Under the pieces are notes generated by a model. The model did not search any database. It saw only the letters and a list, made by a program, of their open reading frames with translations, and was not told where the DNA came from. A stretch of DNA of 32,046 bases from Burkholderiaceae bacterium (GTDB taxonomy: Bacteria; Pseudomonadota; Gammaproteobacteria; Burkholderiales; Burkholderiaceae_E), in assembly GCA_024643785.1 (NCBI GenBank), contig JAHEMI010000021.1:1-32046 (forward strand). The letters are read 5' to 3'. This document shows, one piece after another, positions 4,001-26,282 of the stretch; position 1 is the stretch's first letter; each line of letters opens with the position of its first letter. Made by a program: the position numbers and the translations under genes.

Positions 4001-4679
4001 GCACGCTCTGCTCGAAGCGACCGATTTCAGTGCCGGGGTCGACGCCGGCGAGGCCCGGCGGCACCTCGAACGCAATGCCATCGCCGCCGATGCGCCCGCA
4101 CTGGCGCGCTGGCTCGACGAGGTTCTGGCCACGCCGCTCGATGACGGTCGTGGCGGCCAGCTCGATCTGCGTACGCTTGGCGCTGGTGAGCGCATCGTCG
4201 AGTTGCCGTTCCTGTTGCCGGTCAGCTCCGCGGTCGATGACCAAATCTTCGCCGCGATCGCCGCGCACTATCCGCTCGACCTGCAGCGCGGCCGGGCTGC
4301 CTGGAGCGGGTTTCTCAACGGTTTCATCGATCTCGTCTACCGCCACGACGGGCGCTACTACCTGCTGGACTGGAAGAGCAACTGGTTGGGCGAGGATTTC
4401 GCCGCCTATTGCCCCCAGGCCCTGGATGGGGCGATTCGCCACGGCTCCTACGCGCTGCAGTTCTGCCTCTACGCCGTGGCGCTGCACCGGCTGCTGGGCC
4501 GCAGGGTGGTCGGCTACCGCTTCGAGGAACACTTCGGCGGCGTCCATTACGCCTTCCTGCGCGGCATGGCCGCGGGGGCGCGCGGCCCCGGCGGCAGCCA
4601 GTACGGGGTCTATTTCACGTGTCCGCCGCGCGCGCTGATCGAGCGCATCGATCACCTCCTGGCCGGGAGTCCGCAATGA
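1005..4679 (+). CDS. recB: RecB, exodeoxyribonuclease V subunit beta (helicase-nuclease)
   Basis: The protein is 1224 aa from the GTG at 1005; E. coli RecB is 1180 aa. It is the 3'-5' SF1 helicase and the only nuclease of RecBCD. Visible helicase motifs are Walker A ADAGTGKT (about residues 25-32), the motif II box DECQDTDP from D384, GDPKQAIYGFRNAD, TIHKSKGLEFPVV and LLYVALTRAQ. The C-terminal nuclease domain is intact: GFIDLV with D1109, then LDWKSNWLGED with D1122 and K1124. This is the same spacing as the E. coli catalytic D1067/D1080/K1082, followed by the conserved Q-x3-L-x3-LHR region and EEHFGGVHYAFLRG. The frame stays open upstream to 858, but that part lies over recC; the GTG overlapping the recC stop is the natural start. 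A low-conservation Ala/Glu-rich linker lies around residues 865-990. Confidence 0.97.
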   Translation: MNPAAAPAHPALDPEILSGFHLIEADAGTGKTWTLVGLVVRALVERGLGIEQILMVTFTRAAAAELRGRVRERIDLILRACGGYPAAVPEDPVAALLLASHEPAAVERCLRLALTRIDEAPIDTIHGLCQRVIREHALSVGTPARFEIDQWGERLLRSELTRWWSATMAQAPLELVQLLGARGGPTLEGVTGLLGPLLAQPDLELRPDGFEWRRLADEVRVQRAALLAAYQAEADGFAAWCLGSEELNHRSYTKATVPKWLEQVRRLAAELPESVADVDATAFERLSREGFSSDPAPAGLDAFTLPVRLSELLATLRRRQLVTAAICHELRAPFAARLRERRELAETLTFDDLLRITRDALVDPVLGPGLAARLRHRYPLALIDECQDTDPLQWQIFGAIYPRASAADGDGEGPALVMVGDPKQAIYGFRNADVYAYFAARSGARLHRIAENRRSSAALLAAIGALFDCPAPFRIDEIEMPRPQFGARPRPELLAPGGAAVRADFNWVALTEPGEGKINKDEARGRAAQACAAEIARLLGEPRTLVRWPADTAGGEIGQVQGSEPRELPLQPRDIAVLVGTAHEAAVIKEALARRAVGAAEISRQSVFASREARELGRIVAAVTSPSSSSTLRGALVTGLVGWSAERLRQAEGDDLAWARVVGAFETCARTWPRRGAQAALRTLLLGDLASAGRVAASVGGERSLTNLAHLLDLMSDAPGTAGSPAAALAWLDDARAAGEGGEAHELRLESDANLVQVVTIHKSKGLEFPVVFVPFAWSQSEPRKEAGALKLLRYHESIGERWLAVRELDHGGPDSVAAQADRREQASEALRLLYVALTRAQVRLYLFWGEVARADGSALGWLLRESAEPDEAAAAADKVGGDAAALAAHVARAGGGARQLEHQELLGGPAGPGAGTGALPALAARTFGAQLSAGWVRRSFTQLARSSAAEAHSRPDHDEAVTTADPAVPDEVPSPPSGPAGERLRFSFVRGAHAGHCLHALLEATDFSAGVDAGEARRHLERNAIAADAPALARWLDEVLATPLDDGRGGQLDLRTLGAGERIVELPFLLPVSSAVDDQIFAAIAAHYPLDLQRGRAAWSGFLNGFIDLVYRHDGRYYLLDWKSNWLGEDFAAYCPQALDGAIRHGSYALQFCLYAVALHRLLGRRVVGYRFEEHFGGVHYAFLRGMAAGARGPGGSQYGVYFTCPPRALIERIDHLLAGSPQ

Positions 4680-6412
4680 GCGCGCTCAGGGGTTTCGGTG
4701 ACGTTGCGGTGGCGGCGCGCGAACTGGTCGCGCGACGCTTTGCCAGCGCTGCCGGGCGGCTGCACCACCTCGGCGGCGGTGATCCGGCGACGCGCGCCGC
4801 GGTCGAGTCGTGCGCGGCGCGCTGCTGGCGCTCGGCGCAGGAACACGGCCACAGTTGCATCGCGCTCGGCCCTGATGAACTCGCGGCGCTCGCAGCCAGT
4901 CCGGCGGTGGCGCCGGCGGCGGGCGCCATGGCTGCCGCGGGTTCCGCGCAACGGCGCGACGCCGCTCTGGTGCTCGAAGCCGATCACCTTTTCCTGGAAC
5001 GCCTCTGGCGTGCCGAGTGGCAGCTAGCGAGGCGGCTGCTGGAACTCGCCGCTCCGGCACCCCTGGCGCCGGCCGCGGATGTTGCTGCCATGGTCGCGAC
5101 CGTCTTTGGTGGCGCTGACCCGGACGACGCCCAGCAGCGCGCCGTCACCGTGGCGTTGTCACGGCGCCTGAGCGTGATATCCGGTGGCCCGGGTACCGGC
5201 AAGACCACGACCCTGGCGCGGCTGATCGCCGCCTACTCCCGGCTGAAGCCGGAGGCGCGCATTGCGCTCGCTGCGCCGACCGGCAAGGCGGCGGCGCGGG
5301 TGAGCGAAGCGCTGCACGCGCAACTGCTCGAACTGGCCGCAGCCGATCGCCCGGCGAGCGCCGTGCTGCCCGGGGCAATGACCCTGCACCGGCTGCTGGG
5401 CATTCGCGGCACGGGATCGCGCCCGGCTTTCGGCGCAACCCGGCCGCTGCCCTTCGATCTGATCGTGGTCGACGAGGCCTCGATGGTCGATCTCGAACTG
5501 GCCAGCGCGCTGGTCGCGGCGCTGGGCGGGAATGCGCGCCTGGTGCTCGCGGGCGATCGCGACCAGCTGGCCTCGGTCGAAGCCGGAGCGGTGTTTGCCG
5601 CGCTCTGTGCCGCCCGTGACCCGCGATTGAGCGAGGGCGTGGTAACGCTGGAGCGCAATTATCGCCAGCGCGAGACGCCGGAGATCGTCGCCTGGGCGCA
5701 GGCGGCACGCACCGGAACGATCGCCGACATTGGCTCCGGGCAAGGCGGGGTGCGGCTGCAACGGCTCGCTGGCGCTGGCGGCGGCGAGCAGGCGACGCTG
5801 GCCAGGTCGGTGCTGGCAGGCTACGCCCCGGCGCTCGAGTTGCTCGCTGACGCGGGCGCAGGAGCCGAAGTGGCGCCCGAACTGCTTCGCCGGCTGTCAG
5901 GCTACCGGGTGCTGTGCGCGTTGCGCCGCGGTCCGCTCGGCGTGGCGGCGCTCAACCGGGTGGTGGCGGCAGCGGCGCGGGCCGCGGTCGGCGCCGATCC
6001 CGACGCCACCTGGTATCCCGGTCGCTTCGTGATCGTCAGCCGCAATACCCGGGAACTCGGGCTGTTCAACGGCGACACCGGGGTGTGCCTGAGGCGCGAC
6101 GGAGCGCTGGCGGTGGCATTCCCGCTCGCCGACCGCCTGCACTGGGTCGGGGTGGCGCAGATGCCGGCGTGCGCGGACGCCTTCGCGCTGACGGTGCACC
6201 AGTCGCAGGGCTCGGAGTTCGACCAGGTTGCCCTGGTCGCCGCGCCAGCCGGGCATCGGCTCGCGACCCGCGAACTGATCTATACCGGGATCACGCGCGC
6301 CCGGCTGGGCCTCGAAATCTTTGCTGCCGAGGGCGCGCTGGCGGCAGCCGCCGCTCGCGTGACCGAGCGCACCGGCCTGCTGGGATGGCGCCTGGCGGAG
6401 GGCGCCCGCTGA
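4676..6412 (+). CDS. recD: RecD, exodeoxyribonuclease V subunit alpha (5'-3' helicase)
   Basis: The protein is 578 aa; E. coli RecD is 608. It is the fast 5'-3' SF1B motor of RecBCD. Visible motifs are Walker A GGPGTGKT (residues 170-177), APTGKAAARVSEAL (motif Ia), the motif II box DEAS (266-269), LAGDRDQLASVEAG, the ERNYRQ motif, the C-terminal VHQSQGSEFDQV from V507, and YTGITRAR. The N-terminal ~150 residues are the variable domain that contacts RecB/RecC. The ATG overlaps the recB stop in an ATGA, so recC, recB and recD read as one translationally coupled operon in the order C-B-D. I see no ptrA gene between recC and recB, unlike E. coli. The gene converges on uup with a 19-base gap. Confidence 0.97.
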   Translation: MSALRGFGDVAVAARELVARRFASAAGRLHHLGGGDPATRAAVESCAARCWRSAQEHGHSCIALGPDELAALAASPAVAPAAGAMAAAGSAQRRDAALVLEADHLFLERLWRAEWQLARRLLELAAPAPLAPAADVAAMVATVFGGADPDDAQQRAVTVALSRRLSVISGGPGTGKTTTLARLIAAYSRLKPEARIALAAPTGKAAARVSEALHAQLLELAAADRPASAVLPGAMTLHRLLGIRGTGSRPAFGATRPLPFDLIVVDEASMVDLELASALVAALGGNARLVLAGDRDQLASVEAGAVFAALCAARDPRLSEGVVTLERNYRQRETPEIVAWAQAARTGTIADIGSGQGGVRLQRLAGAGGGEQATLARSVLAGYAPALELLADAGAGAEVAPELLRRLSGYRVLCALRRGPLGVAALNRVVAAAARAAVGADPDATWYPGRFVIVSRNTRELGLFNGDTGVCLRRDGALAVAFPLADRLHWVGVAQMPACADAFALTVHQSQGSEFDQVALVAAPAGHRLATRELIYTGITRARLGLEIFAAEGALAAAAARVTERTGLLGWRLAEGAR

Positions 6413-6426
6413 GGCGCCGCGGCGCC
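6413..6426. terminator. Short GC hairpin between convergent recD and uup
   Basis: GGCGC-CGCG-GCGCC forms a 5-bp perfect stem with a 4-base loop. It fills most of the gap between two convergent stop codons. There is no T-run on either side, so it is at best a weak bidirectional terminator or a barrier to readthrough. The call rests on position and symmetry only. Confidence 0.3.
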
Positions 6427-6431
6427 AGCCA

Positions 6432-8351
<1,920 letters not shown>

Positions 8352-8355
8352 GCGA

Positions 8356-9336
8356 TCAGGATATAGCTTGTGGGGCCGGGCCGTTGGTTGCGGCGATGGC
8401 GTCGAGTGCCTTGCAGATTTCCTGGTGGACGGCCGGCGCGTAGACCAGTTCGACGTGGCCCAGTCCGGCGAAAGCGATGTTATGCGCGCCGGGCAGACTC
8501 TGCGGTTGCGCCGGCACGACGATATTGTCCTGGCGGGTAATTATCACTGTGGCATTGCGATAGCCCTGTGCCGGCTCGGCCGCCGCCAGTTCGCGCAGCC
8601 AGGCGCTGTCGGGGCACATCTGGCTGGCGTTGCGACCGATCGCGTGGCGGGCGCGCAGCGTGCCGCGGTGCGGTGAACCGAGGGTCACCAGTCCCGCCAC
8701 CCGGTCGGCGCCGATCCGGCGCAGCGTGGCCCGAGCCGCCAGCCCGCCCATGCTGTGACCAACGAGCGCCACCCGGTCTGCCCCGCTGTGTGCCAGCAGC
8801 TGATCGATCGCGGCCTCGAGCAGCGGCGCGTAGTCGTCGATCGAGCCGAACACCGGTTCGAGATTTACCGAACCCACCGGATGGCCGCGAGCTGCCAGGA
8901 GGGTGGCCAGCGGTCGCCACAGCGCGCGGTTGCAGAAGTAGCCGTGCACCAGCAGCACCGGGACCCGCCGCGCGACCGTGGCAGTCGGCAACTCGCGGTC
9001 GCCGAACCAGACCTGGGAGTGGAAGAAGGCCCGCAGCGAGGCCGCGACCTCACCCAGCCAGGCGCGCAGCACCGGGTGGTCTTCCCAGCCCGCCGGCGCT
9101 GGCATCACGCTCGTGCCGGCGTCGTCGCCAGGCCCCTCCGGCCGTGCCCGGGCGACCGCGGCGGCAAAGAGGAATTGCCAGCCCAGCACCATGGTATGCG
9201 CGAGCAGCAGCACCGCGACCCCGGCCAGCGCCGCCCACGGCGCCGGCCAGTTGCACCAGGTCGACAACGCCGCGGCGATCAGGGCTGCCCACACGAGCGC
9301 GAGCAGCAACAGCGACTTCAGGATGCGAGCTTGCAT
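8356..9336 (-). CDS. Membrane-anchored alpha/beta-hydrolase, lipase-like
   Basis: The protein is 326 aa from the ATG at 9336; the frame extends further upstream, but there it overlaps the GMC gene and reads as out-of-frame composition. Two hydrophobic segments (about residues 7-25 and 34-60) suggest an N-terminal membrane anchor. An alpha/beta-hydrolase domain follows: the VLLVHGYFCN oxyanion region (127-136), the nucleophile elbow GHSMGG with S195, a probable catalytic acid D270 (TRQDNIV) and H294 (GLGHVEL). Overall it resembles the triacylglycerol-lipase/esterase group; the substrate is unknown. It lies 17 bases after the GMC oxidoreductase and just before uup. The start is moderately uncertain because no clear ribosome binding site precedes it. 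Confidence 0.82.
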   Translation of the reverse strand: MQARILKSLLLLALVWAALIAAALSTWCNWPAPWAALAGVAVLLLAHTMVLGWQFLFAAAVARARPEGPGDDAGTSVMPAPAGWEDHPVLRAWLGEVAASLRAFFHSQVWFGDRELPTATVARRVPVLLVHGYFCNRALWRPLATLLAARGHPVGSVNLEPVFGSIDDYAPLLEAAIDQLLAHSGADRVALVGHSMGGLAARATLRRIGADRVAGLVTLGSPHRGTLRARHAIGRNASQMCPDSAWLRELAAAEPAQGYRNATVIITRQDNIVVPAQPQSLPGAHNIAFAGLGHVELVYAPAVHQEICKALDAIAATNGPAPQAIS

Positions 9337-9353
9337 CGTCGGCGGGCAGGTGC

Positions 9354-10970
9354 TCAGGCGAGCGGGACCGGCGCCCGGCCGGTCAGTTGCTGCGCCAGCC
9401 CGGCGCTGGCCCGAGCGCAGAGCGCGAAGATCGTCAACTGCGGATTGGTGCCGAGCGACGTCGGAAAGATCGAGGCATCGTGGATCGAGACGTTGTCGAG
9501 GTGGTAGTGGCGGGCATCGGGACCGACCAGGCCGGTGCGTTCGTCGGCCGAGAGCGGGCAGCCGCCCATCACATGTGCCGACACTACCCGGGTCAGGTGC
9601 GGCTTCATCGGCAGCGCCATGATCGCCGCCTTGGTCAGGGCCCACGAACTGTAGCCGGTCGCCATTTCATGGATCGGATAGACCGTATGGGCGCCGGCGG
9701 CGAACTGGATTTCGGCCATCGACAGCAGCGCGCGCCGTGCTCCTTCGAACAGGAAGTCGCTGAGCGGGTAGTCCAGCACGGGGCTGCCATCGTCGCGCAG
9801 AGCGACCGTGCCGCCCGGGGATTCCGGGTGAAAACCGTCGCGCAACAGCGCGATCAGCGCATTGGTGTGGGTGAAATTGCTCATCCGCTCAGCGTGCTCG
9901 CGGCCGAATCCCGGCAAGGTGGTGGCGGTGAGCACCGGGTGCAACGGGGGTACCTCGAGCTTGTAGCCCACCGGTCCGTCGATCGGTCCGCGCTCGAGGA
10001 AATGATCGCTGTAGTAGACCTGCGGCGCGCCCTGGTGGCCATCGACGCGTTGCGCGAAGACCGCCGCCGAGACCACCGTCGGATGCAGGAAGGTGCGCCG
10101 GCCGGTGAGACCGTGCGGGTCCGGTGCCTGCGAGCGCAGCAGCAGCGCCGGCGTGTTGATCGCGCCGCCCGAGAGCACGAAATGGCGTGCGCTCACCACC
10201 GAGCGGCGCCCTCCGGGGCGCAGGCCGCTGTCATCGAGCCAGTCGATCTCGAGCGCCTGGGCCTTGGCCCCGGCCATCACCAGCCTGGTGGCCCGCGCCC
10301 TGGTGAGCAGCGTGGCGCCGTTTTCGAGGGCTTCGGGAATAGCGGTGTCGAGCATCGCCGCCTTGCGGTTGGCCGGGCAACCCATCCCGCAGTAACCCAG
10401 GTCGAGGCACTGGCGCACGTTGCGCGGCACGGCGCCGACTGCGATCCCCAGGCGCTGCCCGCCGCGCAGCAGAATGTCATTGTTCTCGTTGGCCGGCATC
10501 ATCCACGGCCCGACCGAGAGGTAGCGTTCGAGCTGTCCGAACCAGGGCGCAAGCTGCTCGACGCCGAAACTCTCCAGCCCGAATTGCCGCTGCCAGTACT
10601 CGAGGGTCGCGCTCGGGGTGCGGAACGACGAAGTCCAGTTGACCGTGGTCGTACCGCCGACGCAACGCCCCTGCAGGATGTTGATCGCCTTGTCCTTGGT
10701 CTTGCGGGCGGCGGATTCCTGGTAGAGCTGCGGGTAGGCCTGCGACTCGAGCATGTTGAAATCTTGCGAGCTGCGCAGCGGCCCTTCCTCGATGATCACG
10801 ACGCGCAGGCCGCTCCCGGCCAGCACCGCGGCGCTGATGGCGCCGCCGGCGCCGCTGCCGACGATCGCGACGTCGCATTCGATGCGCTCCGGCAGCTCGC
10901 TGGCGCCGGCGTCGGTTACCAGCCAGCCGCGCGCCAGTCCCGCCACCACCGGATCCGGATAGTCACTCAT
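9354..10970 (-). CDS. GMC-family FAD-dependent oxidoreductase
   Basis: The protein is 538 aa, an alcohol/sugar/sterol-type flavoprotein. The N-terminal FAD fold has IVGSGAGG (G38-G43) and a distal acidic pair (EEG, 61-63). GMC signature 1 is GRCVGGTTTVNW (101-112) and signature 2 is SGGAINTPALLL (268-278). The C-terminal block has the likely catalytic H466 (SAHVMGGCP), then DASIFPTSLGTNPQLT with N509. A three-cysteine motif, C188-x5-C194-x3-C198 (LGYCGMGCPANRK), resembles the Cys segment of long-chain alcohol oxidases and cholesterol-oxidase-like GMC proteins. No signal peptide is visible. The gene directly before it encodes a small Tat-signal protein, which may carry it across the membrane. 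The substrate cannot be named from sequence. Confidence 0.9.
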   Translation of the reverse strand: MSDYPDPVVAGLARGWLVTDAGASELPERIECDVAIVGSGAGGAISAAVLAGSGLRVVIIEEGPLRSSQDFNMLESQAYPQLYQESAARKTKDKAINILQGRCVGGTTTVNWTSSFRTPSATLEYWQRQFGLESFGVEQLAPWFGQLERYLSVGPWMMPANENNDILLRGGQRLGIAVGAVPRNVRQCLDLGYCGMGCPANRKAAMLDTAIPEALENGATLLTRARATRLVMAGAKAQALEIDWLDDSGLRPGGRRSVVSARHFVLSGGAINTPALLLRSQAPDPHGLTGRRTFLHPTVVSAAVFAQRVDGHQGAPQVYYSDHFLERGPIDGPVGYKLEVPPLHPVLTATTLPGFGREHAERMSNFTHTNALIALLRDGFHPESPGGTVALRDDGSPVLDYPLSDFLFEGARRALLSMAEIQFAAGAHTVYPIHEMATGYSSWALTKAAIMALPMKPHLTRVVSAHVMGGCPLSADERTGLVGPDARHYHLDNVSIHDASIFPTSLGTNPQLTIFALCARASAGLAQQLTGRAPVPLA

Positions 10971-11001
10971 TGCCAGCCCCTGCTTGCGGTTCGTCTTGGG
11001 C

Positions 11002-11490
11002 TCATGGCGGGCCCGGGTAGTCGATCGCTTCCCAATGGGCAGGCTGCGCGTACCACGGTCCGGTGACCAGCTCGTGCAGCCCGTGGTAGCCGCCCTGGAG
11101 CAGCCCGAGACGGTGGGTGCGCCAGCTGCGCAGGAACTCGCTGACCTCGGCGACCGATGCTTTGCTCCAGTCGACCGGGACGCCGGCCAGCACCCGGCGC
11201 AACGGCGCGATCGCGAGCAGCGCGAAGAGCTGCGCCAGTTCGTGCTGGGTCGCCGGCGTCAGGCCATTGAGCGCCGTCAGCGTGTCATTGAGCGCCGCCG
11301 TCACCGCCGCCGAGCGCTGGGGCTCGTCGTGCGGCAGGGCACCGTCGAGAAACGCGGGAATTACCGCCCGCAAGACCTGCTCGCGGTCGCGCACCGGATC
11401 GCGGCCGATCAGCAACGCGGCCGTGCCGCCCAGCGCCAGCAGTACCGTGCCGCCCAGCCCGGCCTTCAATACGGTGCGTCTCGTGACCAT
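11002..11490 (-). CDS. Tat-signal small subunit, gluconate 2-dehydrogenase subunit 3-like, partner of GMC enzyme
   Basis: The protein is 162 aa. The N-terminus has a twin-arginine motif, TRRTVLK (residues 3-9), followed by a Gly/Leu/Ala-rich hydrophobic stretch to about residue 28, as in folded-protein (Tat) export signals. The mature part has a LRAVIPAFLDGALP segment, reminiscent of the gluconate 2-dehydrogenase subunit 3 family, and ends in a Trp/Tyr-rich tail. The stop is 31 bases before the GMC oxidoreductase start. In related two-component GMC dehydrogenases the small subunit supplies the Tat signal for the large one; applying that here is inference. The family assignment is tentative, while the Tat motif is directly visible. 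Confidence 0.75.
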   Translation of the reverse strand: MVTRRTVLKAGLGGTVLLALGGTAALLIGRDPVRDREQVLRAVIPAFLDGALPHDEPQRSAAVTAALNDTLTALNGLTPATQHELAQLFALLAIAPLRRVLAGVPVDWSKASVAEVSEFLRSWRTHRLGLLQGGYHGLHELVTGPWYAQPAHWEAIDYPGPP

Positions 11491-11526
11491 CGCTCAGATC
11501 GCCCTTGTGTCATCGTGGCGCTTGCC

Positions 11527-11922
11527 TCAACCCAGAAACAGCCAGCCTAACACCGCCAGCCAGGTGCCACCAGCAAGGACCAGGGCGACCAGCACGGCGG
11601 CACTGCCGAGGTCCTTGGCGCGGCCGGCCAGTTCATGGTGGCCGGGACTCACCAGGTCGACGACGGCCTCGATGGCCGAATTGAGCAATTCCACCGCCAG
11701 GACCAGGACCAGGCTGGCGATCAGGAGGGCGCGTACGGTCCAGGGAACAGCGAGCAACAGTGCAATGGCAATGCCGCAGAGCAGGATGATCGCTTCGTGG
11801 CGGAAGGCCGCTTCATGGCGCCAGGCATGGGACAGCCCCTGGAGCGAGGCACGGGTGGCCGGGCCGAGGCGCCGGATTGCCTCGGGGAGAATGCTGCTTC
11901 GGTCGTCTTTGCTCTGTTTCAT
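11527..11922 (-). CDS. dgkA: Diacylglycerol kinase (DgkA type)
   Basis: The protein is 131 aa from the ATG at 11922; E. coli DgkA is 122 aa. It is a small integral membrane kinase that recycles diacylglycerol to phosphatidic acid. The diagnostic block is ELLNSAIEAVVD (residues 78-89), followed by HHELAGRAKDLGSAAV (95-110). An amphipathic HEAAFRHE segment (36-43) precedes three hydrophobic helices (about 45-60, 64-84 and 106-127). The frame opens further upstream to 11994, but that extension lies under the rpsF promoter and leader and looks unlike the family, so the inner ATG is preferred. It is divergent from rpsF and may head the same-strand run that continues with the Tat small subunit 36 bases on. 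Confidence 0.93.
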   Translation of the reverse strand: MKQSKDDRSSILPEAIRRLGPATRASLQGLSHAWRHEAAFRHEAIILLCGIAIALLLAVPWTVRALLIASLVLVLAVELLNSAIEAVVDLVSPGHHELAGRAKDLGSAAVLVALVLAGGTWLAVLGWLFLG

Positions 11923-11936
11923 GAACGGGTTATAAT
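11909..11936 (+). promoter_or_regulatory. Sigma-70-type promoter for the rpsF operon
   Basis: A perfect -10 hexamer, TATAAT, lies at 11931-11936. TTGCTC at 11909-11914 (3 of 6 matches to TTGACA) lies 16 bases upstream. Transcription would start near 11943, about 110 bases before the rpsF ATG. The -35 element lies inside the 5' coding end of dgkA. The exact -10 in a GC-rich background makes this the best promoter by eye in the window. Confidence 0.62.
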
Positions 11937-11940
11937 CCTC

Positions 11941-12000
11941 GGTTCCTTGCCGCCAGCCGATGATGACGCGTCGTGCTGCGGCCATTGTCCACAAGGAATC
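11941..12000 (+). promoter_or_regulatory. Structured rpsF leader, candidate S6:S18 autoregulatory element
   Basis: Bases 11941-11949 (GGTTCCTTG) pair with 11992-12000 (CAAGGAATC) in a 9-bp stem with one G-U. Inside it CCG (11950-11952) pairs with CGG (11979-11981) and CAGC (11954-11957) with GCTG (11975-11978), leaving a bulged C. An asymmetric bulge of about ten bases (11982-11991) sits on the 3' side. Predicted transcription starts at the base of this structure. The S6:S18 complex is known to bind a hairpin with a CCG element in rpsF leaders of many bacteria. Assigning this leader to that class is inference. Confidence 0.45.
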
Positions 12001-12053
12001 GGTGAAGCCGCGACCAGGTCCCGGCTCGGCCGAGCTACCAACAAGGAGATTGC

Positions 12054-12425
12054 ATGCGTCACTATGAGATTGTATTCATTGTTCACCCTGACCAGAGTGA
12101 ACAGGTCCCGGCGATGATCGAGCGTTACCGCGGCATCGTCGAATCCCAGCAAGGAAAGGTGCACCGCCTCGAAGATTGGGGCCGGCGCCAACTGGCCTAT
12201 CCGATCGAGAAGATCGCCAAGGCCCATTACGTGCTGTTCAACATCGAGTGCGGTACCGAGGCCCTGGCCGAGCTCGAGCACGCGTTCAAGTTCAATGACG
12301 CCGTGATGCGCCACCTCGTCGTCTCGATGAAGAAGGCCGAAACCGGGCCGTCGCCGATGTGGAAGCAAATCCAGAAGGACGAGGCGAGAAAGGGCGCCGC
12401 CGTCGCCGAGGAAGAGCAGAGCTGA
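12054..12425 (+). CDS. rpsF: 30S ribosomal protein S6
   Basis: The protein is 123 aa. It begins [17 protein letters not shown], the typical S6 N-terminus, and includes the GRRQLAYPI and HYVLFN segments and the [17 protein letters not shown] block. It ends in a charged Lys/Glu-rich tail. S6 binds S18 and 16S rRNA in the platform of the small subunit. A strong Shine-Dalgarno, AAGGAG (12043-12048), precedes the ATG at good spacing. It is the first gene of the rpsF-priB-rpsR-rplI operon, behind a structured leader of about 110 bases. Confidence 0.98.
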
Positions 12426-12481
12426 TTGCGGCGCGATGCTCCGGCCGTTCATCCGTTGCCGCGCTGAACGCATCACGTGAC

Positions 12482-12808
12482 ATGGTTGATCAGATGTCGC
12501 CTGGTGCGGTTGCCAACCGGCTCGAAATCGACGCTGTGCTGTGCGAGCGCGATGCGCTTCGCTTCACTCCAGCGGGGATTGCGATGCTGACGGCGAGTGT
12601 GCGGCACGAATCGCGGCAGATCGAGGCAACGCATGCCAGGTCGGTCGAGTTCGAGTTGCAGGCAGTTTTTGCCGGTGCCGTTGCAGAACGCGCCAATCGC
12701 CTGCCGCTGGGACGCTCGCTGCATCTGGCCGGGTTCATCGCCCCGAGACGGCGCGGCGCCAAGGTGGTCGCGCTACACGTAAACGAATTTCTTGAAATCG
12801 ATAGCTAG
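12482..12808 (+). CDS. priB: PriB, primosomal replication protein N
   Basis: The protein is 108 aa from the ATG at 12482; a second in-frame ATG at 12494 would give 104 aa and neither has a clear ribosome binding site. It is a single-strand DNA-binding OB-fold protein of the replication-restart primosome (PriA-PriB-DnaT pathway in E. coli). Visible features are NRLEIDAVL at the start of the fold, the [18 protein letters not shown] core (E. coli PriB has a VSPSGIPHCQFVLEHRS-type core), a [11 protein letters not shown] strand and the closing [10 protein letters not shown]. Its position between rpsF and rpsR is diagnostic. The frame is open upstream into rpsF, which is a shadow. Confidence 0.93.
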
Positions 12809-12819
12809 AGAGGTATTCC

Positions 12820-13104
12820 ATGGCTGGTTTTCGTCGCGGTTCCAAGGACCGCAAGGATCGCAAGGGTAAACGCCCAGGTCAGGTCGCGCTGTTCAAGCGC
12901 AAGAAGTTTTGCCGGTTCACGGCCGAGAAGGTCGAGTGGATCGACTACAAGGACATCGACGTCCTCAAGGATTTTGTCGCCGAGAACGGCAAGATCATCC
13001 CCGCCCGGCTGACCGGGACCACGGCGCGTTTCCAGCGTCAATTGTCGGTGGCCATCAAGCGGGCACGGTTCCTCGCTCTGGTGCCCTACACCGACTCGCA
13101 TTGA
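12820..13104 (+). CDS. rpsR: 30S ribosomal protein S18
   Basis: The protein is 94 aa; E. coli S18 is 75 aa, so this one has a longer, very basic N-terminal extension ([15 protein letters not shown]). The conserved core includes [21 protein letters not shown], then [19 protein letters not shown] and the [21 protein letters not shown]-terminus. S18 pairs with S6 on the ribosome platform. A purine-rich GAGAGG sequence lies 7-12 bases before the ATG. It starts 11 bases after priB. Confidence 0.98.
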
Positions 13105-13117
13105 GGGGGACACGAAG

Positions 13118-13567
13118 ATGCAAATCATTCTTATCGATAGGGTCGAGGGTCTCGGCCAGCTCGGCGACGTGGTCAAGGTCAAGGACGGCTACGCCCGCAA
13201 TTTCCTGATCCCTTCGGGCAAGGCACGCCGGGCGACCTCGGCGGCGCTGGTGGAGTTCGAGGCACGGCGCGCCGAACTCGAGCGGGTCCAGGCCGAAAAG
13301 ACCGCTGCTGCGCAGGCGCTGGCCGATCGCGTCAACGGGGTGGTGTTGCATATCACCGCCAACGCCGGCCCCGACGGGCGGCTGTTCGGCTCGGTGACCA
13401 ATGCCGACATTGCGGAAGGCCTGGCCAAGTTCGGCGTGGAGATCGAGCGGGGCATGATCCGCATGCCCAACGGCCCCCTGAAGGAAGTTGGCGAAGCCAA
13501 GCTCGAGATCGGCATCTACGCCGACATCACTGCCGAGATCACGGTCACGGTAGCGGGCGAGGAGTAG
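13118..13567 (+). CDS. rplI: 50S ribosomal protein L9
   Basis: The protein is 149 aa, the standard length. The N-terminal domain has the signature GDVVKVKDGYARNFLIPSGKA, followed by the long connecting helix rich in Ala, Glu and Arg (about residues 42-75). The C-terminal rRNA-binding domain has GPDGRLFGSVTNADIAEGL. L9 binds 23S rRNA near the L1 stalk and helps maintain reading frame. It lies 13 bases after rpsR behind a GAGGGGG ribosome binding site, and is the last gene before a terminator-like hairpin. Confidence 0.98.
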   Translation: MQIILIDRVEGLGQLGDVVKVKDGYARNFLIPSGKARRATSAALVEFEARRAELERVQAEKTAAAQALADRVNGVVLHITANAGPDGRLFGSVTNADIAEGLAKFGVEIERGMIRMPNGPLKEVGEAKLEIGIYADITAEITVTVAGEE

Positions 13568-13633
13568 GCGCCGGCGATACTTGACTGCGGCGCTTCCCGT
13601 CGCCGGGAACGCCGGAACATCGAGTCTGGCCAA

Positions 13634-13662
13634 GGGGGGCGCTGCGGCGCCCCTCGTGTTTT
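13634..13662 (+). terminator. Rho-independent terminator-like hairpin after rplI
   Basis: GGGGCGC (13636-13642), loop TGCG, then GCGCCCC (13647-13653) form a 7-bp perfect GC stem. Two further flanking pairs are possible, one of them G-T. A short T-rich run (TCGTGTTTT) follows. It would separate the ribosomal-protein operon from dnaB. The T-run is interrupted, so termination may be partial. Confidence 0.6.
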
Positions 13663-13704
13663 CCGCCGTACCTCGCGGCCCTGATTTCTCCTACACTCAA
13701 GACT

Positions 13705-15096
13705 ATGTCAGCAGCACCGCAAGCATCCCCGAGAACCGATCCCCAGGTCGCAGCACTGCGCCTGCCGCCGCACTCGGTCGAGGCCGAACAGGCGGTTATC
13801 GGCGGGCTGCTGCTCGACAACACCGCGTTCGACCGGATTTCCGACGTCCTGCGCAGCGAAGACTTCTACCGCTACGACCATCGCCTGATCTGGGAACAGG
13901 TGAGCGCGATGATCAGCAAGAACCGGCCGGCGGATGTCGTCACCGTGTTCGAGGCCCTGCAGTCGGCGGGCAAGGCCGAGGAAGTCGGCGGCGGCCTGGT
14001 GTATCTCAATTCGCTCGCCCAGGGCACACCGTCGGCAGCCAACATCCGCCGCTATGCCGAGATCGTCCGCGACCGCTCGGTGCTGCGCCGCCTGATCGCC
14101 ACCTCGGACGAGATTGCCGGCACGGCCCTCAATCCGCAGGGGCGCGAGACCCGGCAGCTGCTCGACGAGGCCGAGGCCAAGATGCTGGCAATCTCGGAGG
14201 ACCGGGCGCGCGGCCAGACCGGTTTCCAGGGCATCTCCGATGTGCTGGCCGAAGTGGTCGAGCGCATCGGCACGCTCTATGACCAGGACAACCACAGCGA
14301 CGTCACCGGGGTGGCGACCGGGTACATCGATCTCGACCGCAAGACCTCGGGGCTGCAGCCCGGCGACCTGGTGATCGTGGCCGGGCGGCCGTCGATGGGC
14401 AAGACCGCCCTGAGCCTCAATATCGCCGAGCACGTGGCGCTGGAGCTGCAGATGCCGGTGGCGGTGTTCAGCATGGAAATGGGCGCCTCCCAGCTCGCGC
14501 ACCGCCTGCTGTGCTCGGTCGGCCGGCTCGACCACCAGCGGCTGCGCACCGGACGGCTGCTCGACGACGACTGGCCGCGGCTGACCAGCGCGATCCAGAA
14601 GATGCAGGACGCGCAACTGTTCATCGACGAGACTCCGGCGCTGACCGCGCTCGAACTGCGCGGCCGCGCGCGGCGCCTGTCGCGCAAGTGCAGCCAGCTC
14701 GGGCTGATCGTCGTCGACTACATCCAGCTGATGTCGGCCAACAGCGCAGGCGAGAACCGGGCCACCGAGATCTCCGAGATCTCGCGTTCGCTCAAGGCGC
14801 TCGCCAAGGAACTGAAGTGCCCGGTGATCGCACTCTCGCAGCTCAACCGCTCGCTCGAGCAGCGTCCCAACAAGCGTCCGGTGATGTCGGACCTGCGCGA
14901 ATCCGGCGCAATCGAACAGGACGCGGACCTGATCCTGTTCATCTACCGCGACGAAGTCTACAACCAGGACTCGCCCGACAAGGGGACGGCCGAACTGATC
15001 ATCGGCAAGCAGCGCAACGGACCGATCGGGACCGTGCGCCTGACCTTCGTCGGCGAACACACCAAGTTCGAGAGTCACTACTCGCCCGGCCAGTAA
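13705..15096 (+). CDS. dnaB: DnaB, replicative DNA helicase
   Basis: The protein is 463 aa; E. coli DnaB is 471. It is the hexameric 5'-3' helicase at the replication fork. The N-terminal DnaG-interacting domain begins LPPHSVEAEQAVIGGLLLDN. The RecA-like C-terminal domain has Walker A GRPSMGKT (227-234), Walker B LIVVDYIQLM with D338, the SEISRSLKALAKEL segment, and SQLNRSLEQR followed by SDLRESGAIEQDAD. The start follows a weak context: no Shine-Dalgarno is visible, and a TACACT -10-like hexamer ends only 8 bases before the ATG. The alr gene that I recall often following dnaB in relatives is absent; phoH converges instead. Confidence 0.98.
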   Translation: MSAAPQASPRTDPQVAALRLPPHSVEAEQAVIGGLLLDNTAFDRISDVLRSEDFYRYDHRLIWEQVSAMISKNRPADVVTVFEALQSAGKAEEVGGGLVYLNSLAQGTPSAANIRRYAEIVRDRSVLRRLIATSDEIAGTALNPQGRETRQLLDEAEAKMLAISEDRARGQTGFQGISDVLAEVVERIGTLYDQDNHSDVTGVATGYIDLDRKTSGLQPGDLVIVAGRPSMGKTALSLNIAEHVALELQMPVAVFSMEMGASQLAHRLLCSVGRLDHQRLRTGRLLDDDWPRLTSAIQKMQDAQLFIDETPALTALELRGRARRLSRKCSQLGLIVVDYIQLMSANSAGENRATEISEISRSLKALAKELKCPVIALSQLNRSLEQRPNKRPVMSDLRESGAIEQDADLILFIYRDEVYNQDSPDKGTAELIIGKQRNGPIGTVRLTFVGEHTKFESHYSPGQ

Positions 15097-15155: not shown

Positions 15156-16841
15156 TCAGAGTGCGTCGCCGGCGAAATCGGCCAGCCGCGAGCGCTCGCC
15201 GCGCTGCAGCGTGACATGCCCGGAATGGGCCCAGCCCTTGAAACGTTCGACCACGTAACTCAGGCCCGATGAGCCTTCGGTGAGGTAGGGCGTGTCGATC
15301 TGGGCGATGTTGCCCAGGCACATCACCTTGGTGCCGGGGCCGGCACGGGTGATCAGGGTCTTCATCTGCTTGGGCGTCAGGTTCTGCGCCTCGTCGATGA
15401 TCAGGAACTTGTTGATGAAGGTGCGTCCGCGCATGAACGACAGCGCCTTGACCTTGACCCGGCTGCGGATCAGGTCGTTGGTGGCAGCGCGGCCCCACTC
15501 GCCCGAGCCCGGATCGGTCTTGTTGAGCATCTCGAGATTGTCTTCGAGCGCGCCCATCCAGGGCTGCATCTTCTCTTCCTCGGTGCCCGGCAGGTAGCCG
15601 ATGTCCTCGCCCACCGGCACGGTCGCGCGGGTCATGATGATCTCGGTGTAGCGCTTGCTCTCCAGCACCTGGACCAGGCCGGCGGCCAGCGCCAGCAGGG
15701 TCTTGCCGGTGCCGGCCTGCCCGAGCAGGCTGACGAAATCGATCTCCGGGTTCATCAGCAGGTTGAGCGCGAAGTTCTGCTCGCGATTGCGCGCCGTTAT
15801 CCCCCAGACCGCGTTCTTGACGTGGGCGTAGTCGCGCACCGTCTGCAGCACCGCGGTGCGGCCGGCGATTTCGCGCACGATTGCATTGAGCTGCATCTCG
15901 CCGTCGAAATGGACGAACTGGTTCAGCGTCATCCCGGCCACTGCCGGGCCGGTGATGCGGTAGAACGTGTAGCCGCCCTGTTGCCAGGATTCCATGCCCT
16001 TGGCGTGCCGGTCCCAGAAATCGGGTGGCAGCTCCAGCACCCCGGCATAGAGCAGGTCGGTGTCGGAGAGCACCTGGTCGTTGAAGTAGTCTTCGGCGCG
16101 CAAGCCCAGGGCGCGCGCCTTGATGCGCATGTTGATGTCCTTCGAGACCAGCACCACGTCGCGCTCGGGATGCTGTTCGCTCAACGTGCGCACCACGCCG
16201 AGAATCTGGTTGTCGGCCTTGTCCACCGGCAGGCTCGAGGGCAGCATCACCGCGCTCGCCTGGGTCTGGAAGAACAGCTGCCCACTGGCGTCGCGATTGC
16301 CCAGCGCCGACAGCTTCAGGCCGTCCTCGAGCCGGTCGGGAGCCGAAGCGATCAGCGCGTCGAGCGAGCGGCTGACCTGCCGGGCGTTGCGCGAAACCTC
16401 CGATGCGCCGCGCTTGTGGTTGTCGAGCTCCTCGAGCGTGATCATCGGCAGGTAGATGTCGTGCTCGGCAAAGCGGAACAGGCTCGAGGGATCATGCATC
16501 AGCACGTTGGTGTCGAGCACGAACAGGGTCGCCGCGCGTTCGTCGCGGCGCGAGGGCGATTTCCTGGGCGCCGGATCCGGGGGCAGCTTGGGCTTCTTGG
16601 CGGCACTGCCGAGCGCGCGCACCTTGGTCGCGGCAAGCTTGGCGACCGGCGCCGGCGCCGGTGCGGGCGCGGGAGCTGTCGCGGGCGCTGGCGCGCTCAC
16701 CAGCAGCGCGGGAGCCTTGCGGCTTGCCGCCCGCTTGGTAGCCGGGCGCCTGGCAGTTGGTTTTCGGTTAGGTCGGGCCTCGAGTTCCGGGGTGACGGTG
16801 ACGAGCGTTGCAGGTTTTGCGGGAGCTTTGGGCAGTGGCAT
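15156..16841 (-). CDS. PhoH-family protein with N-terminal PIN domain
   Basis: The protein is 561 aa. A low-complexity Ala/Pro/Lys-rich leader (residues 1-103, with an AP repeat at about 50-66) precedes a PIN ribonuclease-like domain. That domain opens LFVLDTNVLMHDP (D110) and continues LEELDNHKRGASEVSRNARQ. The C-terminal half is the PhoH ATPase: ITARNREQNFALNLLM, Walker A GQAGTGKT (374-381), ATVPVGEDIGYLPG, and the Walker B region FLIIDEAQNLTPKQMK. Family knowledge: PIN-PhoH proteins couple RNA cleavage to ATP-driven unwinding. Its exact role in proteobacteria is not settled. It is a long-form protein, not the short YbeZ type next to ybeY. Confidence 0.93.
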   Translation of the reverse strand: MPLPKAPAKPATLVTVTPELEARPNRKPTARRPATKRAASRKAPALLVSAPAPATAPAPAPAPAPVAKLAATKVRALGSAAKKPKLPPDPAPRKSPSRRDERAATLFVLDTNVLMHDPSSLFRFAEHDIYLPMITLEELDNHKRGASEVSRNARQVSRSLDALIASAPDRLEDGLKLSALGNRDASGQLFFQTQASAVMLPSSLPVDKADNQILGVVRTLSEQHPERDVVLVSKDINMRIKARALGLRAEDYFNDQVLSDTDLLYAGVLELPPDFWDRHAKGMESWQQGGYTFYRITGPAVAGMTLNQFVHFDGEMQLNAIVREIAGRTAVLQTVRDYAHVKNAVWGITARNREQNFALNLLMNPEIDFVSLLGQAGTGKTLLALAAGLVQVLESKRYTEIIMTRATVPVGEDIGYLPGTEEEKMQPWMGALEDNLEMLNKTDPGSGEWGRAATNDLIRSRVKVKALSFMRGRTFINKFLIIDEAQNLTPKQMKTLITRAGPGTKVMCLGNIAQIDTPYLTEGSSGLSYVVERFKGWAHSGHVTLQRGERSRLADFAGDAL

Positions 16842-17455: not shown

Positions 17456-18682
17456 ATGGGTTCCGGGCGAGAGTTTTCGCGCATCAAACGGCTGCCGCCG
17501 TACGTTTTCAACATTACCGGTGAGTTGAAGATGGCCGAGCGCCGACGCGGCGTCGACATCATCGACATGAGCATGGGCAACCCCGACGGGCCGACCCCAC
17601 AGCACATTGTCGACAAGCTGGTCGAAGCCTCGCGCCGGCCCGATACCCACGGCTATTCGGTGTCGCGCGGCATTCCGCGACTGCGCCGCGCGATTGCCGA
17701 CTGGTACCAGCGGCGCTACCAGGTCACCATCGACCCCGAGACCGAGGCCATCGTGACGATCGGCTCCAAGGAGGGACTGGCCCACCTGATGCTGGCGACG
17801 CTCGATCGCGGCGACACGGTGCTGGTGCCCAACCCGAGCTACCCGATCCACATTTATGGTGCGGTAATCGCGGGCGCCGACATTCGCTCGGTGCGCATGA
17901 CCCCGGGGGTCGATTTCTTCGACGAACTCGAGCGCGCCATCCGCGAGTCGATTCCCAAGCCCAAGATGATGATCATCGGGTTTCCGAGCAACCCGACCGC
18001 GATTTGCGTCGACCTGTCGTTCTTCGAGCGGGTGGTGGCACTGGCGCGCCATCACAACATCCTGGTGGTCCACGACCTCGCCTACGCCGACATCGTTTTC
18101 GAGGACTACAAGGCGCCTTCGATCATGCAGGTGCCGGGGGCCCGCGAGGTCGCGGTCGAATTCTTCACCATGAGCAAGAGCTACAACATGGCCGGCTGGC
18201 GGGTCGGCTTCATGGTCGGCAACGCCGATTTGGTGCACGCGCTCGCCCGGCTCAAGAGCTACCACGACTACGGCCTGTTCACGCCGGTGCAGGTGGCGGC
18301 GATCGCCGCGCTCGATGGCCCCCAGGACTGCGTCGAGCAGGTGCGCGCCAACTACCAGTTGCGTCGCGACGTGCTGGTCAATGGCCTGTGCGAGCTGGGC
18401 TGGCCCGTTGAGAGTCCCAGAGCCTCGATGTATGTCTGGGCGAAGATCCCCGAGCCCTACCAGGCGCTCGGGTCTCTGGAGTTCGCGCGCAAGCTGCTGC
18501 TCGAAGCCAGGGTCGCGGTGTCGCCGGGAATCGGTTTCGGCGAGTACGGCGACGATCACGTCCGCTTCGCGCTGATCGAGAACCGCCAGCGCATCCGCCA
18601 GGCACTGCGGGGGATCCGCGAGACCTTCCGCAAGGACGGGTTGATCGCCGCGGCTGCGGAGCCGGCGCCACAACAACAGTAA
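17456..18682 (+). CDS. alaC: Alanine transaminase AlaC, class I/II aminotransferase
   Basis: The protein is 408 aa, a PLP-dependent fold-type I enzyme that makes alanine from pyruvate and glutamate. It begins [19 protein letters not shown] and continues [19 protein letters not shown], both typical of AlaC. Substrate- and cofactor-binding segments are [19 protein letters not shown] and [13 protein letters not shown]. The Schiff-base lysine is K241 in [18 protein letters not shown], and a C-terminal [16 protein letters not shown] carries the carboxylate-binding Arg. The AGGGGAG ribosome binding site supports the chosen ATG. It is followed by a strong hairpin and then hom, the arrangement familiar in betaproteobacteria. 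Confidence 0.95.
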
Positions 18683-18692
18683 GATTGTGGCA

Positions 18693-18720
18693 GCTACCCC
18701 GGCGAGCGCGCCGGGGTAGC
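18693..18720 (+). other. Perfect 12-bp hairpin between alaC and hom
   Basis: GCTACCCCGGCG (18693-18704), loop AGCG and CGCCGGGGTAGC (18709-18720) make a perfect 12-bp stem. It occupies most of the 70-base alaC-hom gap. No T-run follows (ATGGCCGCTTTGG), so it is not a standard intrinsic terminator. It could block 3' exonucleases, partly terminate transcription, or shape the hom leader. It lies 32 bases before the hom ATG. Confidence 0.5.
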
Positions 18721-18752
18721 ATGGCCGCTTTGGCCTGGATACGGGGAACGCA

Positions 18753-20093
18753 ATGGGAGTAGAGAAGTTTGGTCCGGTGCGGGTAGGGTTGCTGGGGATC
18801 GGCACGGTCGGCGGCGGCACTTTCGAAGTGCTGTGGCGCAATCGCCAGGAGATCACGCGCCGGGCTGGCCGGCGCATCGAGATCACCCAGGTCGCCGACC
18901 GCGACGTTGATCACGCGCGCCGGATCGTTGCCGACCGCGCCCGGGTGCTCGACGATGCCGCCGCCGTGGTCGCGGATCCCGCGATCGACATCGTCGTCGA
19001 ACTGATCGGCGGCACCGGCGTCGCGCTGAAACTGGTGCTGGCTGCGATCGAAGCCGGCAAGCATGTCGTCACCGCCAACAAGGCCTTGCTCGCGATGCAC
19101 GGCAACGAGATTTTCGCGGCGGCGTCGCGCCGCGGCGTGATGGTGGCGTTCGAGGCGGCGGTGGCCGGCGGCATTCCGATCATCAAGGCGCTGCGCGAGG
19201 GACTGAGCGCCAACCGCATCGAGTCGATCGCCGGGATCATCAACGGCACCACCAACTTCATCCTCTCGGAGATGCGCGACAAGGGGTTGGCATTCGACGC
19301 GGTGCTGGCCGAGGCCCAGCGCCTGGGCTACGCCGAGGCCGATCCGACCTTCGATATCGAGGGCGTCGACGCGGCCCACAAGGCGACCATCCTGGCAGCG
19401 CTGGCGTTCGGCATCCCGGTGCAGTTCGACAAGTGCTACGTTGAAGGGATCTCGACGCTGCAGTCGACCGACATCAAATTCGCCGAGCAGCTTGGTTACC
19501 GGATCAAGCTGCTGGCGATCACCCGCCGCCGTGAGCGAGGCGAGGGGCCACACGGGATCGAACTGCGCGTGCACCCGACGCTGATCCCGGCGCGCCGCCT
19601 GATCGCCAACGTCGAAGGCGCGATGAATGCCGTCTGGGTCAAGGGCGACGCGGTCGGCGAGACCATGTATTACGGCAAGGGCGCCGGTGCCGAACCCACC
19701 GCCAGCGCGGTCGTAGCCGACCTGATCGACGTCGCGCGGGTGCTGACCGCGGACCCTGAGAACCGCGTGCCCCATCTCGCCTTCCAGGCCGAGTCGATCT
19801 CCGACCTGCCGATCCTGCCGATGGACGACGTCGAAACCGCCTATTACCTGCGTATGCGGGTGGCCGACGAGCCTGGCGTGCTGGCCGATCTGGCGCGCAT
19901 TCTCGCCGATGGCGAGATCTCGATCGACGCGCTGCTGCAGCGCGAGCCGGGCGCGGGCGAAGATCAGACCGACATCGTGCTGCTCACCCACGTGACGTTC
20001 GAGCGTCGGGTAAACCAGGCGATCGCGCGCATCGAGGCGCTCCCGACGGTGCTCTCGAAGGTGGTCCGGATCCGCCTCGAGGAACTGGCATGA
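18753..20093 (+). CDS. hom: Homoserine dehydrogenase
   Basis: The protein is 446 aa, monofunctional. It reduces aspartate semialdehyde to homoserine for threonine and methionine synthesis. The NAD(P)-binding fold opens VGLLGIGTVGGGTFEVL (about residues 11-27). TANKALLAMHG and the catalytic-domain stretch GIINGTTNFILSEMRDKG follow, with EADPTFDIEGVDAAHKA and the AFGIPVQFDKCYVEGI signature. A C-terminal ACT domain (from about residue 364, YYLRMRVADEPGVLADLARI) is the likely site of threonine feedback control. GGGGAA six bases before the ATG is a fair ribosome binding site. Its stop overlaps thrC. Confidence 0.97.
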   Translation: MGVEKFGPVRVGLLGIGTVGGGTFEVLWRNRQEITRRAGRRIEITQVADRDVDHARRIVADRARVLDDAAAVVADPAIDIVVELIGGTGVALKLVLAAIEAGKHVVTANKALLAMHGNEIFAAASRRGVMVAFEAAVAGGIPIIKALREGLSANRIESIAGIINGTTNFILSEMRDKGLAFDAVLAEAQRLGYAEADPTFDIEGVDAAHKATILAALAFGIPVQFDKCYVEGISTLQSTDIKFAEQLGYRIKLLAITRRRERGEGPHGIELRVHPTLIPARRLIANVEGAMNAVWVKGDAVGETMYYGKGAGAEPTASAVVADLIDVARVLTADPENRVPHLAFQAESISDLPILPMDDVETAYYLRMRVADEPGVLADLARILADGEISIDALLQREPGAGEDQTDIVLLTHVTFERRVNQAIARIEALPTVLSKVVRIRLEELA

Positions 20094-22227: not shown

Positions 22228-22746
22228 ATGCACGTATTCGGATTCGCCGGTTTCTCGGGCTCTGGCAAGACGACGCTGATCGAACAGTTGATCCCGCGGC
22301 TGATTGCCCGCGGACTGCGGGTGGCGCTCATCAAGCACGCCCACCACGAGTTCGACGTCGATACGCCGGGCAAGGACTCTTACCGTCACCGCGAGGCCGG
22401 CGCCAGCGAGGTGCTGATCACCTCGGACCAGCGCTGGGTGCTGATGCATGAACTGCGCGGCGAGACCGAGCCTGGTCTCAAGGACCAGCTCGGTTATCTC
22501 TCGCCTTGCGACCTGGTGCTGGTCGAGGGGTACAAGCGCGCGGAGATTCCCAAGATCGAGGTGCACCGGCGCGAGACCGGCAAACCGCTGCTCTACCCCG
22601 CTGACCCGTTCATCATCGCGGTGGCGAGCGACGAGGAGATCGAGACCGGGTTGCCGCTGCTGGACCTCGACGATCCGGACGCCATCGCCGGCTTTATCGT
22701 CGACTATCTGGAGCGAATCGATGAGACCATCACTGCTGCCGCTTGA
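22228..22746 (+). CDS. mobB: MobB, molybdopterin-guanine dinucleotide biosynthesis GTP-binding protein
   Basis: The protein is 172 aa from the ATG at 22228; the frame extends upstream, but over the divergent acyltransferase. It is a small P-loop GTPase that assists MobA in forming molybdopterin guanine dinucleotide. Walker A is GFSGSGKT (8-15). RVALIKHAHHEFDVDTPGKDSYRHREAGA is the typical MobB block, followed by DLVLVEGYKRAEIPKIEVHR. A GGGACGGGG purine-rich site precedes the start, and a TAGAAT -10-like hexamer lies at 22199-22204. It opens the cofactor operon, and its last 26 bases overlap moeA. Confidence 0.95.
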   Translation: MHVFGFAGFSGSGKTTLIEQLIPRLIARGLRVALIKHAHHEFDVDTPGKDSYRHREAGASEVLITSDQRWVLMHELRGETEPGLKDQLGYLSPCDLVLVEGYKRAEIPKIEVHRRETGKPLLYPADPFIIAVASDEEIETGLPLLDLDDPDAIAGFIVDYLERIDETITAAA

Positions 22747-26237: not shown

Positions 26238-26282
26238 TGCTGGCTTCCTCGGCTAATAGATAGGGACAATTATGCGATAGCG

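Follow-up and report, generated by a model that had tools for sequence, protein, structure and literature searches.

A probable Lao-type long-chain alcohol dehydrogenase locus with an added lipase gene in a Burkholderiaceae bacterium

What joins a small protein bearing a twin-arginine translocation (Tat) signal, a flavoenzyme of the GMC family and a membrane-anchored lipase, and on what substrate would they act? The question is raised by a 32,046-nucleotide stretch of DNA from a Burkholderiaceae bacterium (contig JAHEMI010000021.1; hereafter the window), which is one contig of an incomplete genome of 2.66 Mb in 179 contigs. The three genes, here called TAT, GMC and LIP, follow one another on the minus strand, with intergenic gaps of 31 bases (TAT/GMC) and 17 bases (GMC/LIP). 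We consider it probable that they form a long-chain alcohol dehydrogenase locus of the Lao type to which a lipase gene has been added. An earlier note, made from the window sequence alone, had described the open reading frames (ORFs), gaps, twin-arginine motif and catalytic residues of this cluster, and all of them were found as it gave them. The features are as follows.

11002-11490, minus strand: TAT, LaoB-like small subunit with a Tat signal, 162 amino acids (invariant RR motif, homology to proteins in the LaoB position, PF13618 profile match)
11407-11490, minus strand: Tat signal of TAT, residues 1-28 (RR in the n-region and a hydrophobic helix), probably an uncleaved anchor (model helix, rare A-x-A)
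9354-10970, minus strand: GMC, LaoA-like GMC flavoenzyme, 538 amino acids (PF00732, homology to gammaproteobacterial GMCs, PDB fold matches)
10377-10409, minus strand: C188-x5-C194-x3-C198 of GMC, predicted [3Fe-4S] ligands (alignment with the alpha subunit of Burkholderia cepacia glucose dehydrogenase, GDH)
8356-9336, minus strand: LIP, membrane-anchored alpha/beta hydrolase (lipase) with S195/D270/H294, 326 amino acids (PF00561, nearest solved sequences lipases)
9181-9324, minus strand: two hydrophobic segments of LIP, residues 5-23 and 34-52, a predicted hairpin with both ends cytoplasmic (Kyte-Doolittle windows, K+R counts)

The length of LIP is counted from the ATG at 9336, and a longer GTG frame is also present. 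GMC matches PF00732 (E 2e-49) and PF05199 (E 1e-16), while LIP matches PF00561 (E 5e-12). The Pfam and NCBIfam labels of the trio had been superfamily names only (GMC, alpha/beta hydrolase) or, for TAT, none, and a probable function can now be assigned.

A conserved set of three genes

Relatives were gathered in two sets, which have 7 genomes in common and are not independent. For the family set, a TAT search matched 26 of 74 family genomes (our own included), and the 25 others provide the 25 family loci. The named set consists of GMC-anchored loci, the best 80 of at least 590 stretches (575 confirmed) in named genomes; the organisms are betaproteobacteria by name, mostly Burkholderiales, or metagenome-assembled genomes (MAGs) under broader names. 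The earlier note had proposed gene-neighbourhood analysis as a check on whether the trio stays together in relatives, and it does: TAT, GMC and LIP are all adjacent in 25/25 family loci, and in the 80 named loci GMC is adjoined by TAT in 79 and by LIP in 68. The lone locus without TAT (L109) is one whose sequence begins just 166 bases ahead of the GMC match. Among the 12 loci without LIP, one contig stops 74 bases past GMC, and other sequence occupies the place in 11.

The proteins of 16 other loci are 61-90% identical to those of the window for GMC, 46-86% for TAT and 36-78% for LIP, and because of these conserved identities the trio is more than a chance grouping; the closest named relative among the matches listed is a Burkholderiaceae MAG, with a GMC identity of 90%. 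Neighbouring frames overlap in many relatives, by 4 nucleotides at 24 of 51 measured TAT/GMC junctions and by 4 nucleotides in 15/68 or 1 nucleotide in 6/68 at the GMC/LIP junction, these overlaps being approximate since starts were chosen by rule. The trio is a genuine conserved gene set. TAT matches are rare in the class (5/369 sampled genomes) and commoner in the window's order (28/250), our own genome included in both counts. Neighbour clustering, blurred by antisense ORFs, found no additional gene in nearly all 80 loci, and no relative was found in the viral contigs searched. Plasmids gave 139 matching records, each below 60% identity and the best at about 30%.

Kinship with the Lao system

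The LaoA-LaoB complex is said to contain a flavin, to prefer unbranched primary alcohols and to reduce a cytochrome c550 of the ExaB type. In Pseudomonas aeruginosa, PA0364-PA0367 are LaoA, LaoB, LaoC and LaoR (PMC7318663, accessible part), and the order given for P. putida PP_5119-PP_5122 is regulator, aldehyde dehydrogenase (ALDH), laoB homologue and laoA homologue (PMC13291428, accessible part). The complex has been published as Tat-dependent, as far as the accessible portion of the literature goes.

The link between these genes and the window comes through a set of 248 Pseudomonadaceae genomes, a family assigned via OprF in one genome (PF05736, E 1e-77; the name is inferred). A relative of the window GMC at E<=1e-80 is present in 190 of the 248, and 20 of these regions were examined. 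All 20 have the arrangement ALDH-TAT-GMC on a single strand, which is the order laoC-laoB-laoA; a divergent LaoR-like TetR gene lies upstream in 19, and the six sampled are all PF13972 TetR proteins. This agrees with the order given for P. putida and with the set of genes in P. aeruginosa. The window GMC is 49.9-58.6% identical to 22 gammaproteobacterial GMCs, of which these loci supply 20 and other gammaproteobacterial families two, and the window TAT is 32.5-42.9% identical to 21 gammaproteobacterial proteins in the LaoB position, at E 3e-18 or better in 21/21. Judged by sequence, GMC and TAT are homologous to LaoA and LaoB by way of Pseudomonadaceae loci in lao gene order, and we call the window locus a LaoBA variant with a lipase.

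The LaoABCR system (P. aeruginosa PA0364-PA0367, with homologues in P. putida and Oleispira) and the window thus have in common a GMC enzyme with a small Tat or inner-membrane partner, in the order B-A. They differ in that the window carries a membrane lipase gene instead of laoC and laoR. Betaproteobacterial loci mostly carry LIP in place of laoC: an ALDH gene lies near the pair in 3/80 named and 0/25 family loci. Conversely, LIP is absent from 20/20 Pseudomonadaceae and 5/5 other gammaproteobacterial loci. The Lao and LIP arrangements are linked by the locus of an uncultured Dechloromonas MAG (L129:4092-13579), which joins ALDH, TAT, GMC and LIP and further holds a LaoR-like TetR gene, phasin, patatin and an acyl-CoA-reductase-like short-chain dehydrogenase/reductase (SDR), all of them elements that other loci have separately.

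Other arrangements were also seen. In the gammaproteobacterial locus L155 an ALDH ORF (PF00171, E 2e-83) overlaps the start of TAT by 1 nucleotide. The gammaproteobacterial loci L156 and L157:2491-10128 have a TAT-GMC pair, with a lipobox in TAT and without ALDH or LIP, whose neighbours are an OPT transporter, FeoB, a TetR gene and a sulfotransferase-family gene. On the Alteromonas macleodii plasmid pKD02 (L205:5288-8868), a distant GMC of about 29% identity lies between genes annotated as gluconate 2-dehydrogenase subunit 3 and aldehyde dehydrogenase, which repeats the three-gene logic in a distant branch.

Several observations weigh against a Lao assignment. The homology to LaoA and LaoB (PA0364 and PA0365) is indirect, running through the Pseudomonadaceae proteins in the lao positions. 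The 32-kb window holds no aldehyde dehydrogenase (laoC) gene and no LaoR-like TetR gene, so that two features of the whole LaoABCR operon are missing. Of the 90 Foldseek matches (up to E 10) of the TAT model, not one reached E<=0.001; the best VIA-align Z was 3.6, and no hitchhiker or GDH gamma subunit was among the fold matches. Finally, the accessible part of a study in P. putida KT2440 describes growth on C16 or C20 alcohol as unimpaired after deletion of the laoAB homologues (PMC13291428); because of this, the pair may be dispensable for the use of fatty alcohols.

Cofactor, electron acceptor and export

C188, C194, C198, H466 and N509 of GMC are present and invariant in a 17-row alignment, and the cysteine motif is also invariant in a 39-row alignment, with C-x5-C-x3-C-P found in 22/22 gammaproteobacterial GMCs. 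A profile alignment places C188/C194/C198 on Cys212/Cys218/Cys222 of B. cepacia GDH alpha. The latter residues are the ligands of a [3Fe-4S] cluster in the crystal structure of that enzyme, whose gamma subunit is a Tat hitchhiker (PMC6719666, accessible part). Among GMC loci of the order, the motif occurs in 4/4 with a TAT partner, one of them the window, and in 2/24 without (Fisher p 0.0007; 31 loci examined and 28 classifiable, no GMC ORF having been recognised in the other three). Our own genome holds just one further PF00732 match (G000:C46:21772-22665), a GMC ORF without the motif and without a TAT-type partner in the flanks examined. A [3Fe-4S] cluster at C188/C194/C198 is a good prediction, though not a result. 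The two lowest-confidence loops of the GMC model (predicted local distance difference test, pLDDT, 83) are residues 104-113, the loop for flavin adenine dinucleotide (FAD), and 189-202, the cysteine loop. In the earlier note the cysteines had hinted at long-chain alcohol oxidases; long-chain alcohols are supported by the Lao homology, and the cysteine cluster aligns with the GDH [3Fe-4S] ligands, which the note had not proposed.

This resemblance brings in sugars. GDH of B. cepacia and fructose dehydrogenase (FDH) of Gluconobacter have the GMC fold, the same cysteine spacing as [3Fe-4S] ligands and a Tat hitchhiker partner, and of the nine best PDB fold matches of GMC, seven are catalytic chains of fructose dehydrogenases and two of glucose dehydrogenases, with choline oxidase close behind. 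One could imagine a sugar or polyol dehydrogenase of this type that borrows a distant cytochrome and has the lipase as an unrelated passenger. We regard this as very improbable, given that GMC is about 50-59% identical to proteins of loci in laoC-laoB-laoA order and about 19% identical to GDH/FDH chains in fold alignments, that the window pair is without the adjacent multi-haem subunit, and that LIP is conserved over many genera. In addition, the profile alignment puts Asn111 of the window GMC where GDH has the FAD-linked His105.

The earlier note's observation that no cytochrome is adjacent holds up. A scan of 131 loci (the window among them, some shorter than the 4-kb flank) showed no same-strand ORF with at least two CXXCH motifs at 4 kb or less from GMC, and positions 4500-15000 of the window contain no CXXCH ORF of at least 70 amino acids. 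With 17 PF13442 matches, c-type cytochrome domains are nevertheless present in the genome. The substrate, which the note had left unknown, can be answered in part from the accessible Lao literature; for the acceptor, cytochrome c550 is a candidate.

The twin-arginine motif of TAT reads MVTRRTVLK, and R4/R5 are invariant in a 67-row alignment. The TAT model is helical (pLDDT 90), with an unbroken helix at residues 4-28. Because an A-x-A motif so seldom follows this helix (8/67 rows), the signal is probably uncleaved and would serve as a membrane anchor. The small subunits of Pseudomonadaceae differ in having a lipobox in 14/20, versus 1/67 betaproteobacterial rows and none in the window TAT; either helix anchor or lipobox would keep the complex at the membrane.

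The window TAT and 17 members show no Pfam family above cut-off and no PF13618 match, and the scan of our own genome is likewise without PF13618. A TAT profile nevertheless aligned by hhalign with one of 14 PF13618 (Gluconate_2-dh3) proteins at probability 96.7 in local and 97.9 in global mode, all controls (40 shuffles per mode, reversed, lipase) staying below 1. L137, whose frame held a GMC domain, was left out of the PF13618 profile; an earlier comparison that included it gave 94 local and 96 global. TAT resembles Gluconate_2-dh3 also in a common G-Y/F-P-G-P tail, and differs in lying under Pfam's cut-off. Neither TAT nor a profile of three PF13618 proteins gave a credible match among solved sequences. 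A designed PPR protein (TAT profile, E 1e-4) was taken as compositional, no single stretch having passed.

The sequence of GMC itself opens with MSDYPDP and has the Rossmann motif at residues 38-43; inspection by eye showed no hydrophobic stretch near the N-terminus. Export of GMC as a hitchhiker on TAT, suggested by the earlier note, gains support from their adjacency in 79/80 loci, the 4-nucleotide overlaps and the homology to the Tat-dependent LaoA-LaoB complex, and may well apply here.

The lipase and its surroundings

S195, D270 and H294 of LIP are present and invariant in a 17-row alignment, and the nearest solved sequences to the LIP profile are Bacillus subtilis lipase A (LipA) and then triacylglycerol lipases. 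With these enzymes, including those of Burkholderia and Pseudomonas, LIP has in common the alpha/beta hydrolase core and the H-S-M-G elbow, which is found in 68/68 relatives; the Asp motif D-N-[IVL]-[VI] is found in 62/68 and the His motif G-x-G-H, too strict a pattern, in 30/68. It differs from LipA-type lipases in having a two-helix membrane anchor and not being secreted. Two hydrophobic segments were counted in 60 of the 68 LIPs, one in 5 and three in 3, and in the 60 with two the charges favour both ends inside in 55 and outside in 1, with 4 ties, as judged crudely from hydropathy windows and counts of K+R. Because the charges favour both ends inside, the catalytic domain is predicted to be cytoplasmic, opposite the exported oxidase.

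This placement bears on the two-step envelope pathway drawn in the earlier note, with ester hydrolysis by the lipase followed by oxidation of the released alcohol, both on the periplasmic side. The adjacency of LIP to GMC (68/80 and 25/25 loci) and their overlapping frames would fit such a coupling, but the predicted cytoplasmic catalytic domain and the absence of LIP from the Pseudomonadaceae and other gammaproteobacterial loci count against it, so that the pathway as drawn is weakened and we hold it to be unlikely. No report of a lipase beside laoAB was found in the literature searched, most subscription papers being outside its reach, and among the papers listed LaoA and lipase are named together solely in work on Aspergillus, presumably for another gene.

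Lipid-related genes surround the trio in many relatives. A two-domain SDR (PF07993 and adh_short; NF005539 above cut-off) lies downstream of LIP in 20/25 family and 11/80 named loci, on the opposite, convergent strand in all 31; among loci with at least 3.5 kb downstream it is present in 18/20 family, 9/68 named and 0/20 Pseudomonadaceae. By domains and length, without direct alignment, it resembles fatty-acyl-CoA reductases, since FCR1 (650 amino acids) and MAQU_2507 match it in size (PMC3522743, accessible part). Phasin is near LIP in 18/25 family and 17/80 named loci, patatin in 17/25 and 8/80, and a LaoR-like TetR gene lies downstream on the same strand in 2/25 and 18/80. The window and its two closest examined relatives (L028, L029) have no SDR, phasin, patatin or LaoR-like TetR gene.

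These neighbours also bear on the substrate. The same exported GMC build could act on another lipophilic alcohol (a sterol, hopanoid, polyprenol or terpenoid alcohol), with the lipase cleaving matching esters. Among NCBIfam models GMC scores best against one for cholesterol oxidase, at only 61 bits against a cut-off of 850, and the betaproteobacterial GMCs form their own group in a quick tree (44 of 66 purely LIP-labelled named loci left out; long rows L205, L206 and L158 unsure), so that substrates may have shifted. However, straight-chain lipids are indicated by the acyl-CoA-reductase-like SDR, phasin and patatin of relatives and by the Lao homology, and we give this alternative a low probability.

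The immediate neighbours of the trio were considered as members of the system and rejected. The ORF of a dgkA-type diacylglycerol kinase (PF01219, 11527-11994) stops 36 bases short of TAT, and on the same strand that of an ABC-F ATPase (6432-8351) begins 4 bases past LIP; relatives of the two (>=65% and >=78% identity) are nearby in 3/25 family loci, all of one genus. The gene rpsF, nearby in 22/25 family loci, reflects shared synteny. Further along the window, Pfam identifies a PhoH-PIN protein (15156-16841), MoeA (22448-23938), a ClpA/ClpB-type ATPase (26007-28952) and an Orn/Lys/Arg decarboxylase (29003-31276). The long minus-strand ORFs 18378-19991 and 19964-21211 have no Pfam match at E<=1e-8, and one or both may be antisense frames in this GC-rich DNA.

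The sequences themselves show the conservation of the genes, the overlapping frames, the homology, the aligned motif and the neighbourhoods; for export, complex, cofactor, substrate, acceptor and lipase role we infer the following course. The LaoB-like TAT would bind folded, FAD-loaded LaoA-like GMC in the cytoplasm and carry it across the inner membrane, and its hydrophobic N-terminus would then probably keep the complex at the periplasmic face. There the FAD of GMC (H466/N509) would be the site at which a lipophilic primary alcohol is converted to the aldehyde, and the electrons would pass from FAD by way of the [3Fe-4S] cluster (C188/C194/C198) to a c-type cytochrome whose gene lies elsewhere. 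Further oxidation of the aldehyde would take place in the cell interior, through an aldehyde dehydrogenase likewise encoded elsewhere, as opposed to the adjacent laoC of Pseudomonadaceae. The lipase would probably draw on membrane or storage lipids, for example wax esters, to supply or recycle acyl groups or long-chain alcohol.

With a Lao-type locus as the preferred reading, a fatty-alcohol oxidation system described, in the accessible literature, for gammaproteobacteria would extend to betaproteobacteria with a different partner gene. The [3Fe-4S] cluster predicted for LaoA-type enzymes would, if true, account for the link to the respiratory chain of a GMC enzyme that has no haem subunit of its own. 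It is tempting to speculate, as a possibility that we hold only tentatively, that Lao enzymes are overlooked iron-sulphur flavoproteins and that in Burkholderiales the pair sits in an island for the turnover of fatty alcohols and wax esters. In such an island the acyl-CoA reductase would make the alcohol, the membrane lipase would free it from esters on the cytoplasmic side, and phasin and patatin would act on storage lipid, while from across the membrane, at the outer face of the inner membrane, LaoBA would oxidise the alcohol into the respiratory chain by way of FAD, [3Fe-4S] and cytochrome c.

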